A stretch of 64,000 nucleotides of DNA, from NCBI RefSeq assembly GCF_016093275.1, contig NZ_JAEDAK010000017.1, positions 1-64,000 of the forward strand, given 5' to 3'. Source of the stretch: Inhella proteolytica. GTDB lineage: Bacteria; Pseudomonadota; Gammaproteobacteria; Burkholderiales; Burkholderiaceae_C. The notes beneath the pieces were generated by a model. The model was given only the letters and a program-made list of their open reading frames with translations, was not told the origin of the DNA and searched no databases. The position numbers were made by a program, and so were the translations under genes. Shown piece by piece: positions 60,884-63,736 of the stretch. Numbering within the stretch: position 1 is the first letter of the stretch; each line of letters begins with the position of its first letter.

Positions 60884-61990
60884 TCAGGCGCCGCGCACCG
60901 CCGCGTCCAGGCCGGCCAGCAGCTCCAGGGTCTGGGCCCAGTCGATGCAGGCGTCGGTGATGCTCTGGCCGTAGAGCAGCTTGGCCGGGTCGTCCTTGCC
61001 GGGACTGAACTTCTGCGCCCCGCCGTTCAGGTGGCTCTCCACCATCACGCCGAAGATCTGGCGGCGGCCGGCGCGCCACTGGCGGGCCAGTTCCTCAGCC
61101 ACCAGCAGTTGGCGCTCGTGCTGCTTGCTGCTGTTGGCGTGGCTGCAGTCCACCATCAGGCGGTTGGGCAGCTTGGCGGCGGTGAGCTCGGCGCAGGCGG
61201 CGTCGATGCTGGCCTCGTCGTAGTTCGGCGCCTTGCCGCCGCGCAGGATGACGTGGCAATCCTTGTTGCCCTTGGTCTGCACGATGGCGACTTGGCCGTT
61301 CTTGTGCACCGACAGGAAGTGGTGCGGGCGTGCCGCGGCCTGGATGGCATCGGTGGCGATCTTGATGTTGCCGTCGGTGCCGTTCTTGAAGCCGATCGGG
61401 GCGGAAAGGCCGGAGCTCAGTTCTCGGTGCACCTGGCTCTCGGTGGTGCGCGCGCCAATCGCGCCCCAGGCGATCAGGTCGCCGATGTACTGGGGCGAGA
61501 TCACGTCGAGGAACTCGCTGCCGGCCGGCACACCCAGGCGATTGATTTCCAGCAGCAGCTGGCGGGCGATGCGCAGGCCTTCGTCGATGCGGTAGCTCTC
61601 GTCCAGGTAGGGGTCGTTGATCAGGCCTTTCCAGCCCACCGTGGTGCGCGGCTTCTCGAAATAGACCCGCATGACGATTTCCAGCGTGTCCTTGTACTGC
61701 TCGCGCACGCCCTTGAGGCGGCGGGCGTAGTCCAGGGCCGCGGCCGGGTCGTGGATCGAGCAGGGCCCCACCACCACCAGCAGGCGCCCGTCCTTGCCGG
61801 CCAGGATGTTGCGGATGGCCTGGCGGGTGTTCAGCACCAGCTTTTCCATCGGCGTGCCGGCGATCGGGAAGAAGCGGATCAGGTGCTCGGGCGGCGGCAG
61901 CGGCGTGATGTCGGCAATGCGCTCGTCATCGGTGCGGCTGGTGCGGTCTTCCTGGCTGTACACGCGCTCGGGCAGGGCTTTGGCGTTCAT
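60884..61990 (-). CDS. aroG: 3-deoxy-7-phosphoheptulonate synthase (DAHP synthase, class I)
   Basis: 368 aa. It condenses PEP and erythrose 4-phosphate, the first step of the shikimate pathway. LLVVVGPCSIHDPAAALDYARRL, MRVYFEKPRTTVGWKGLINDP, GARTTESQVHRELSSGLS, GFKNGTDGN and DCSHANSSKQHERQ are class I AroFGH motifs. The N-terminal 30 residues would carry the feedback site. Upstream lies an attenuator with an aromatic-rich leader peptide, so transcription should fall when aromatic tRNAs are charged. Confidence 0.96.
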   Translation of the reverse strand: MNAKALPERVYSQEDRTSRTDDERIADITPLPPPEHLIRFFPIAGTPMEKLVLNTRQAIRNILAGKDGRLLVVVGPCSIHDPAAALDYARRLKGVREQYKDTLEIVMRVYFEKPRTTVGWKGLINDPYLDESYRIDEGLRIARQLLLEINRLGVPAGSEFLDVISPQYIGDLIAWGAIGARTTESQVHRELSSGLSAPIGFKNGTDGNIKIATDAIQAAARPHHFLSVHKNGQVAIVQTKGNKDCHVILRGGKAPNYDEASIDAACAELTAAKLPNRLMVDCSHANSSKQHERQLLVAEELARQWRAGRRQIFGVMVESHLNGGAQKFSPGKDDPAKLLYGQSITDACIDWAQTLELLAGLDAAVRGA

Positions 61991-62010: not shown

Positions 62011-62044
62011 TAAAAAAACCGCCGGGCTTTGGGGCCCGGCGGTT
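62011..62044 (-). terminator. Attenuator terminator in the aroG leader
   Basis: On the minus strand an 11-bp stem AACCGCCGGGC / GCCCGGCGGTT encloses a 6-base loop and runs straight into a T tract of seven. It sits between the leader peptide stop and the aroG start (20 bp away), so it can only cut off aroG, not end an upstream gene cleanly. The 5' arm can alternatively pair with 62084-62092. Confidence 0.8.
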
Positions 62045-62071
62045 CTTGGGGAGTCTGGGTTGCGCGTGCGC

Positions 62072-62137
62072 TCAGATCTCTCCACCGCCGGGGCGGGGAT
62101 AGAACCAAAAGCTAAAAAAGGCGGCGACGCGGAACAT
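62072..62137 (-). CDS. aroG leader peptide (aromatic-rich attenuation peptide)
   Basis: A 21-codon ORF 147 bp before aroG. Residues 7-13 read FFSFWFY: four Phe, one Trp and one Tyr in seven codons, which would make translation sensitive to charged aromatic tRNAs. Codons 16-18 (CCC GGC GGT) form the antiterminator strand. The ATG is 13 bp after the tldD stop; there is no clear ribosome-binding site, but a promoter-like sequence ends just 7 bp upstream, so the mRNA may start at the ATG. Confidence 0.75.
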   Translation of the reverse strand: MFRVAAFFSFWFYPRPGGGEI

Positions 62138-62144
62138 GGCGACG

Positions 62145-62174
62145 AATGTATCAGGCGGTCCCGCCCACCGTCAG
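62145..62174 (-). promoter_or_regulatory. Candidate promoter of the aroG leader
   Basis: On the minus strand CTGACG (62174-62169), an 18-bp spacer ending in TG plus one base, and TACATT (62150-62145) resemble an extended -10 promoter overlapping the tldD stop. Initiation 7-8 bases later would fall at or next to the leader-peptide ATG. Confidence 0.45.
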
Positions 62175-63608
62175 CCCTTCGATGCGAAGGGTGGGTTGCC
62201 CGACACCGACGGGCACCGACTGCCCCTCCTTGCCGCACACGCCCACGCCCGAGTCGAGCGCCATGTCGTTGCCGATCATGGACACGCGCGTCAGCGCCTC
62301 GGGGCCGTTGCCGATCAGGGTGGCGCCCTTGACGGGGTATTGGATCTTGCCCTTCTCGACCCAGTAGGCCTCGGAGGCCGAGAACACGAACTTGCCGCTG
62401 GTGATGTCGACCTGGCCGCCGCCGAAATTGGTGGCGTAGAGGCCGCGGTCGATGCTGGCGATGATCTCGGCGGGGTCGCGGTCGCCGCCCAGCATGTAGG
62501 TGTTGGTCATGCGCGGCATCGGCACATGGGCGTAGCTCTCGCGGCGGCCGTTGCCGGTCTGCGGCACCTTCATCAGGCGGGCGTTGAGCGCGTCCTGGAT
62601 GTAGCCGACCAGGATGCCGTCTTCGATCAGCACGTTGCGCTGCGGGGCATGGCCCTCGTCGTCGATGTTCAGGCTGCCGCGGCGGTCCGGCAGGGTGCCG
62701 TCGTCCAGCACGGTCACGCCCTTGGCGGCCACGCGTTGGCCGATGCGGCCGGCGAAGGTGCTGGAGCCCTTGCGATTGAAGTCGCCTTCCAAGCCGTGGC
62801 CCACGGCCTCGTGCAGCAGCACGCCGGGCCAGCCCGGGCCCAGCACCACGGTCATCTCGCCGGCCGGGGCAGGGCGGGATTCCAGATTGGTCAGCGCGCC
62901 GTGCACGGCCTGCTCCACATAGCCGGCCAGCATCTCGTCAGTGAAGTAGGCCAGGCCAAAGCGCCCGCCGCCGCCACCGCTGCCCACCTCGCGCCGGCCA
63001 TTGCGCTCGGCGATCACGGTGATCGAGAGCCGCACCAGCGGGCGCACATCGGCCGCCAGCAGGCCATCGGCGCGGGCAATCAGCACCATTTCATGCTCGG
63101 CCGCCAGGCCGGCCATGACCTGCACCACCGCCGGGTCCTTGGCGCGCGCCATGCGCTCGATGCGTTCCAGCAGCGCCACCTTGGCGGCGCTGTCCAGGCT
63201 GGCGATGGGGTCGGCCGCGCCGTAGAGCTGCATGCCCTGGGCGCGGCGCGGGTTGACCTTGACGCGGCGGCTCTGGCCGGCTGCGGCGATGCTGCGCACG
63301 GTCAGGGCGCAATCGGCCAGCGCGGCTTCGCTGAGGGAGTCGGAGTAGGCAAAGGCGGTCTTTTCGCCCACCACGGCCCGCACGCCGACGCCCTGGTCGA
63401 TCGAGAAGCTGCCGCTCTTGACGATGCCCTCCTCCAGGCTCCAGCCCTCGGCGCGGGTGGTCTGGAAGTAAAGATCGGCGTCGTCCACGCGGTGTGCGGT
63501 GATGAGCTTGAGCGCGCGGCTCAGCGCGGCCTCGTCCAGGCCGAAGGGGGTGAGCAGGCTGGCCTGGGCGCTGGCCAATGCGCTCAGCATCGAGTCGGGG
63601 GCATTCAT
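62151..63608 (-). CDS. tldD: Metalloprotease TldD
   Basis: 485 aa. TldD with TldE/PmbA forms a zinc protease that processes peptides such as microcins and helps degrade CcdA-type antitoxins. The metal motif is LLHEAVGHGLEGD (HExxxH), and ALNARLMKVPQTGNGRRESYAHVPMPRMTNTYM, GGGQVDITSGKFVF and GNGPEALTRVSMIGNDMAL are family blocks. pmbA is not nearby. The start MNAPDSMLSAL is at 63608; upstream in-frame codons belong to the promoter region. Confidence 0.95.
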   Translation of the reverse strand: MNAPDSMLSALASAQASLLTPFGLDEAALSRALKLITAHRVDDADLYFQTTRAEGWSLEEGIVKSGSFSIDQGVGVRAVVGEKTAFAYSDSLSEAALADCALTVRSIAAAGQSRRVKVNPRRAQGMQLYGAADPIASLDSAAKVALLERIERMARAKDPAVVQVMAGLAAEHEMVLIARADGLLAADVRPLVRLSITVIAERNGRREVGSGGGGGRFGLAYFTDEMLAGYVEQAVHGALTNLESRPAPAGEMTVVLGPGWPGVLLHEAVGHGLEGDFNRKGSSTFAGRIGQRVAAKGVTVLDDGTLPDRRGSLNIDDEGHAPQRNVLIEDGILVGYIQDALNARLMKVPQTGNGRRESYAHVPMPRMTNTYMLGGDRDPAEIIASIDRGLYATNFGGGQVDITSGKFVFSASEAYWVEKGKIQYPVKGATLIGNGPEALTRVSMIGNDMALDSGVGVCGKEGQSVPVGVGQPTLRIEGLTVGGTA

Positions 63609-63736
63609 GCCCCAATTGTGGGGGGCTTCACAAAACTTCATGCCGGTTTACGGTTGCTCTGTCGCCGCCACGAAGCGGCGCACCGTTGCTGCCCCAACCC
63701 GGCCATTCTCGCGCCGGCAACCCCAGGAGAACCTGC

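Follow-up and report, generated by a model that had tools for sequence, protein, structure and literature searches.

The DAHP synthase gene aroG of Inhella proteolytica very probably lies under the control of a ribosome-mediated transcription attenuator that answers to how much charged tRNA-Phe, tRNA-Tyr and tRNA-Trp is available. This reading is drawn from a 64,000-nucleotide stretch of contig NZ_JAEDAK010000017.1 (hereafter the window), and from comparative analysis, which shows at the level of sequence and predicted folding the parts of the attenuator, their conservation, their place before aroG and the mutual exclusion of its two structures. The same predicted arrangement is widespread among relatives in the order Burkholderiales, so that the attenuator predicts the mode of control of the first step of aromatic synthesis in many bacteria of a large order, a step that in E. 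coli falls to protein repressors. The features are collected in Table 1.

Table 1. Features of the predicted aroG attenuator and its flanking genes in the window
Feature	Position	Strand	Basis
Putative sigma-70-type promoter	62145..62174	-	Sequence; comparison of 72 leaders
Predicted transcription start, at most about 2 nt from the A of the leader AUG	62137	-	Suggested by -10 spacing
Leader peptide ORF, 21 codons, product MFRVAAFFSFWFYPRPGGGEI	62072..62137	-	Sequence; relatives
Putative control codons Phe7 Phe8 Ser9 Phe10 Trp11 Phe12 Tyr13	62099..62119	-	Sequence; 72 leaders
Predicted protector hairpin 1:2	62077..62103	-	Fold z in window and 72 leaders
Predicted antiterminator 2:3	62035..62092	-	Duplex energy, folding; inner helix co-adapted
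Predicted intrinsic terminator 3:4	62012..62047	-	Folding; terminator in 72/72 leaders
aroG, type I DAHP synthase, 368 aa, predicted regulated gene	60884..61990	-	TIGR00034, E 3e-157
tldD, upstream neighbour, same strand	62151..63641	-	NF008006

The leader ORF sits on the minus strand between tldD and the DAHP synthase gene, its AUG 13 nt downstream of the tldD stop codon. Counting ORFs of 10-40 aa on either strand, with ATG, GTG or TTG starts and nested starts taken separately, the window contains 1210, and only this one has at least five Phe, Trp or Tyr within eight residues. The gene name aroG is that of the preliminary description of this DNA; the product of 61990-60884 scores 521.7 bits against the AroG-specific NCBIfam model, under its cut-off of 568, and 498.8 bits against the AroH model, over its cut-off of 463, and these profile scores leave the isozyme type and the inhibiting amino acid unsettled. 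An Rfam search of the whole window returned no family match at the gathering score, Phe_leader and Trp_leader included. A second type I DAHP synthase in the genome (L002, G000:C33:99800-100843; 59% identical) shows neither an aromatic leader nor a terminator-linked short ORF upstream, and in the flanks examined of a pheA-like gene and of two chorismate-binding genes no such leader with a nearby T-tract terminator was found. In the same genome, a short ORF with WPW (L137, ~684-789) stands before a chorismate-binding (TrpE-like) gene, with the first five-T tract about 75 nt past its stop and probably within the gene; it is possibly a Trp leader of another type.

The mutual exclusion arises from a repeated segment. 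CCCGGCGGT occurs twice on the minus strand, once inside the leader ORF (62092-62084) and once in the terminator (62026-62018), and both copies are able to pair with ACCGCCGGG at 62043-62035. The terminator, separated from the aroG start by 21 nt, is made up of a 5' arm (62047-62034), a 3' arm (62027-62014) and a tract of seven T (U7 in the RNA; 62018-62012), and its hairpin in the window reaches -26.4 kcal/mol. The competitor duplex has an energy of -20.8 kcal/mol; among 200 dinucleotide-shuffled versions of the region the mean was -12.7, and one did as well. When the RNA is cut after the terminator 5' arm, the antiterminator forms as a single long hairpin of -29.8 kcal/mol in which CCCGGCGGU (62092-62084) pairs with ACCGCCGGG over 9 bp, continued inward by GG/CC pairs and a GAG..CUC helix. 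The preliminary description had placed a 21-residue aromatic ORF, a terminator and a 9-bp competitor pairing here, and all three are found at its positions; the folding of the minus-strand RNA that it had proposed as a check gives -55.6 kcal/mol for the entire leader (z -2.87), which was equalled by 1 of 200 shuffles.

The leader recurs in related bacteria. Among the best 80 of 594 relatives, an aromatic leader ORF (at least four Phe, Trp or Tyr in nine residues) stands before aroG in 71 of the 80 named loci, many of the 71 with peptides of the form FYFxYFWFS, and these 71 together with the window (L003-L082 plus the window) make up the comparison set of 72 leaders. No such leader was found in nine of the 80 loci: four of Polynucleobacter, two of Cupriavidus, L078, L080 and L061, the last having just 49 nt of upstream DNA, too short to judge. 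In the four Polynucleobacter loci (L028, L035, L041 and L045) aroG lies close behind tldD and the leader ORF was not found; two Polynucleobacter MAGs (L047 and L051) do carry it, and the leader has apparently been lost in part of this genus. L080 is titled a Planctomycetota MAG, its aroG is 67% identical, and its taxonomic label may stem from misbinning.

The 72 leaders were selected by their ORF alone, the terminator not being a criterion, and a T-tract hairpin is present in all 72 of them (-14.1 to -26.6 kcal/mol), with the U-tract always 115-136 nt past the AUG. Measured against shuffles, the competitor duplex ranks in the best 5% in 42 leaders and falls outside that range in the remaining 30. 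Folding of the RNA from strand 2 to strand 3 only gives a probability of 2:3 pairing above 0.5 in 70/72, and in the full transcript the terminator prevails (mean 0.98 over the 72). The two structures were described beforehand as excluding each other, and they do so in these predictions, the antiterminator forming when the upstream RNA is left out and the terminator winning when the transcript is complete. Folded alone, most leaders give, as judged by eye, one long antiterminator hairpin whose inner helix is built around a conserved GAGAG, often with a GCGT/ACGC stem; across the 72 leaders this inner region is more stable than its shuffles, with a mean z of -1.32. RNAalifold on a MAFFT alignment recovered the core stem only. 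With the ORF, the competitor segment and the terminator all recurring before aroG, the comparison supports an attenuator of the pheA/trp type, as had been suggested, and the leader ORF and the pairing segments are kept among relatives.

A protector hairpin is predicted between UCU..UCCCCGC (62103-62093) and GCGG.GGA..AGA (62088-62077), and would complete the classical set of 1:2, 2:3 and 3:4 structures; its support is real but modest, with a z of -2.2 in the window, a mean z of -1.03 (SE 0.10, n=72) and a core that is paired in 47/72. In ribosome-free RNA running through strand 3 the probability of 2:3 pairing has a mean of 0.35 (n=72) and is 0.999 in the window itself, so that the window's own protector may be weak. 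We also considered a strand 1 at the start of the ORF (for example GCCGCC at 62123-62118 with GGCGGU), which pairs more weakly than shuffles (mean -11.3 vs -13.2 kcal/mol, 0/72 in the best 5%, the window ranking 30/100); the hairpin just past the aromatic codons is therefore preferred. The protector hairpin and the AUG-adjacent promoter discussed below are parts beyond those of the preliminary description.

To follow the leader through the order we built a covariance model, R1, from alignment A1, which holds 65 of the 72 leaders (the window and named loci). Searched against 300 genomes of the order, R1 matches 91 at E <= 0.01, of which 70 match at full length (E <= 3.1e-5). A broader model, R2, was built from alignment A2, comprising 77 of 111 leaders, and matches 147/300 genomes, many as terminator-only fragments, with full matches in 78/300 (E <= 1.4e-6); since 37 of these 78 genomes, along with the window, supplied R2 seeds, the genome count is taken from R1. 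Of 40 distant model matches that were fetched, 39 stand before a DAHP synthase gene, and the fortieth, the weakest (E 0.005), has no such gene behind it. The leaders of 37/39 are clearly aromatic, and the two with poor ORFs (L115 and L117) were excluded from A2; because the distant matches were picked by the model, their terminators are not independent evidence. Class-wide, 6/274 genomes match at E <= 0.001: three belong to the family of the window, one match is partial, and the other two, L133 and L134, come from a single family outside the order and have the match before a DAHP synthase gene; of these two, L133 has an aromatic leader ORF that passes the scan. In L068, recorded as Solimonas, a leader precedes an aroG that is 75% identical. 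The occurrences in L068, L133 and L134 may reflect horizontal transfer, contamination or greater age.

Co-adaptation of the two halves of the inner antiterminator helix is shown by exchanging them between loci. When the halves were permuted among loci, 0/2000 permutations paired as well as the real combination at each of four lengths. Swapping halves with the nearest relative, as judged by the aroG protein, cost pairing energy in 42 of the 72 leaders and gained it in 13; with the three nearest relatives the swap was a cost in 63 and a gain in 7 of 72, the mean cost being 1.17 kcal/mol where ten shuffled controls gave -0.29 to 0.39, although nearest-relative pairs overlap and sign tests on them are only a guide. 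Similar swaps of the strand-2/strand-3 core between near loci did not lower pairing (1998/5000 swaps as good), because the core is near-invariant, and in the near set the core helix is without co-variation support. The base beside the core co-varies in all three strands as C-G-C or T-A-T (98/111 leaders used, 13 skipped), with Fisher p of 9e-7 for the antiterminator and 7e-20 for the terminator; the next base outward has no excess pairing. Strand 3 has changed only about five times on the tree, and this strong-looking single-base co-variation is therefore not counted as proof. Independent pairs give 3 same, 0 opposite and 2 no change for the terminator, and on average 1.5 same, 0.4 opposite and 2.0 no change for the antiterminator, too few in both cases for significance.

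The composition of the leader peptides points to the amino acids that would be sensed. Within the first 18 residues, Phe is present in 72/72 leaders, Tyr in 69/72 and Trp in 61/72 (307 Phe, 115 Tyr and 63 Trp residues in total), and among the 39 distant leaders Phe is present in 39, Tyr in 37 and Trp in 14; from these counts Phe and Tyr appear to be constant and Trp lineage-dependent. Given the footprint of a ribosome, a distance of 15-18 nt is approximately the last stall position that leaves strand 2 free. In 49 of the 59 leaders measured for it, the spacing from the first nucleotide of the Trp codon to GGCGG falls within this range of 15-18 nt, in keeping with the earlier proposal that a ribosome stalled on the aromatic codons frees the antiterminator. 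Phe codons in the 72 leaders are 194 TTT vs 113 TTC, the opposite of the preference in the aroG genes behind them (129 TTT vs 481 TTC); the bias may arise because a U-rich control region stays unpaired, or because codon choice matters in decoding.

We propose that transcription begins at or beside the leader AUG and that ribosomes load on the leaderless 5' end. With aromatic aminoacyl-tRNA scarce, the ribosome would stall at codons 7-12 and cover strand 1, leaving strand 2 (GGCGGUGGAGAG) open for pairing with strand 3 (CUCC..ACCGCCGGG); formation of 2:3 would then block the terminator, and aroG would be transcribed. With aromatics plentiful, the ribosome would continue to the stop codon and so sit on strand 2, or would depart and allow 1:2 to form, and strand 3 would pair with strand 4, stopping transcription before aroG.

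The start of the transcript is suggested by the position of the promoter. In the window, a -35-like CTGACG (62174-62169) and an 18-nt spacer precede an extended -10 element, TGATACATT (62153-62145), which overlaps the tldD stop codon and leaves a gap of 7 nt to the leader AUG, giving the layout TGATACATT-CGTCGCC-ATG. The usual sigma-70 spacing puts the start at or beside the A of this AUG. A TGTGCTACATT-like extended -10 ends 6-8 nt upstream of the AUG in 68/72 leaders, the motif TANNNT lies 5-9 nt upstream in 67/72 vs 0-3/72 at seven control offsets, and SD-like 4-mers are found in only 2/72; this spacing and the rarity of SD-like sites make it probable that the leader mRNA is leaderless and starts at or beside the AUG. 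It is unlikely that the attenuator is real yet transcribed from farther upstream, by a separate start or by readthrough from tldD, with the AUG-near site not the main promoter. Such a longer transcript would fit the position of tldD on the same strand and so close before the AUG, and the start proposed here is a prediction from spacing; at least four matches to the -35 are seen in just 15/70 leaders (21%) vs about 11% of control sites, and in distant loci TANNNT occupies the promoter position in 13/39 vs 1-6/39 at control offsets, so that this promoter placement, firm among near relatives, is uncertain in more distant ones. The fixed distance of the extended -10 from the AUG argues against a longer transcript, as does the near-absence of SD-like sites, which would be expected for a translated ORF with a 5' UTR, and leaderless mRNAs are reported, in the available parts of two studies, for Burkholderia cenocepacia and Cupriavidus metallidurans (PMC4603805, PMC7563307).

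Two further readings would dispense with attenuation or demote it. It is barely credible that the hairpin is a mere tldD terminator, with aroG served by its own promoter and the ORF and competitor pairing incidental: tldD does end just upstream on the same strand, where terminators are common, but the aromatic ORF recurs before aroG in most of the best 80 of 594 relatives, the U-tract keeps its distance from the AUG in all 72 leaders, nearly all the fetched distant matches precede a DAHP synthase gene, and the four Polynucleobacter loci in which the leader ORF was not found show on visual inspection no T-tract hairpin in the tldD-aroG interval. That the leader exerts its main effect in trans, as an sRNA or peptide in the manner of rnTrpL/peTrpL of Sinorhizobium meliloti, is also quite improbable. 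At about 125 nt, the terminated leaderless transcript would be a product of the same type as rnTrpL as described in the available text of PMC7298713; against a peptide role, the C-terminal part shifts frame among relatives while the core nucleotides stay constant (among 111 leaders, GGCGG is in frame 0 in 53, frame 2 in 45, frame 1 in 1 and absent in 12), so that RNA rather than peptide seems to be held there. Action in trans and attenuation are in any case compatible.

Attenuation of aroG remains the reading that we prefer, and it raises two questions: the mixed Phe, Tyr and Trp codons ask which tRNA is actually read, and the apparent absence of a 5' UTR asks how attenuation proceeds when the ribosome loads on the first bases to leave RNA polymerase. 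More tentatively, and with some doubt, a single ancestral leaderless attenuator reading Phe, Tyr and Trp tRNAs at once may govern entry into the shikimate pathway across Burkholderiales, in place of the TyrR and TrpR repressors of E. coli. On that reading, translation from a 5'-terminal AUG would make aroG sensitive to how well the cell initiates on leaderless mRNA, and not to amino acids alone. R1 offers a searchable model for a family that Rfam does not recognise in the window.

Our literature search found no report of a Burkholderiales aroG attenuator, an earlier prediction being possible in older surveys (Lopatovskaya 2010, Vitreschak 2004); the available parts of Naville and Gautheret 2010, PMC4833913, PMC1262725 and PMC8632094 give none. 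The Burkholderiales family, with its mixed codons and, in one part of it, a probably leaderless leader, appears to be unreported in the literature searched, and we claim no priority for it.

The E. coli pheL-pheA and trpL-trp attenuators follow the logic proposed here, of leader ORF, protector, antiterminator and terminator; their leaders have SD sequences, unlike nearly all of the 72 leaders compared here, and their targets are terminal-branch genes, whereas here the target would be the pathway's first enzyme. Both attenuators are named in the available text of a review, which has aroF and aroH regulated by TyrR and TrpR (PMC11802643). The uORFC-13-1 motif before aroF of Acholeplasma, a predicted Phe-containing uORF with a terminator (PMC8632094), likewise pairs a uORF and a terminator upstream of a DAHP synthase gene; as far as the available part of that source describes it, the motif differs in being confined to Acholeplasma and environmental sequences, in having an RBS and in belonging to a far lineage.

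The closest parallels each share one half of the arrangement. In the aroR-aroF attenuator of Corynebacterium glutamicum, a Phe-Tyr-Phe leader precedes a DAHP synthase gene, as an aromatic-codon leader does in the window, and ribosome stalling raises transcription under Phe limitation, with no effect of Tyr (Neshat et al. 2014, via the available text of the review PMC11802643). Attenuation of a DAHP synthase by a mixed aromatic peptide had been called notable for the window; the mixture of Phe, Trp and Tyr codons stands, and the novelty is weakened because the C. glutamicum system has already been reported. That system is actinobacterial and uses Phe-Tyr-Phe only, while the Burkholderiales leaders often add Trp, a comparison made by description only. 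The trpL (rnTrpL) attenuator transcript of S. meliloti starts at the ATG of the leader ORF (PMC7298713, as available in part) and so shares with the window a leaderless attenuator transcript, predicted in our case; it differs in its Trp codons, its trpE(G) target and its alphaproteobacterial host. To the extent that these partly available sources describe them, attenuation of a DAHP synthase gene and leaderless attenuation each have precedent, and the attenuator proposed for aroG is of a kind already known.
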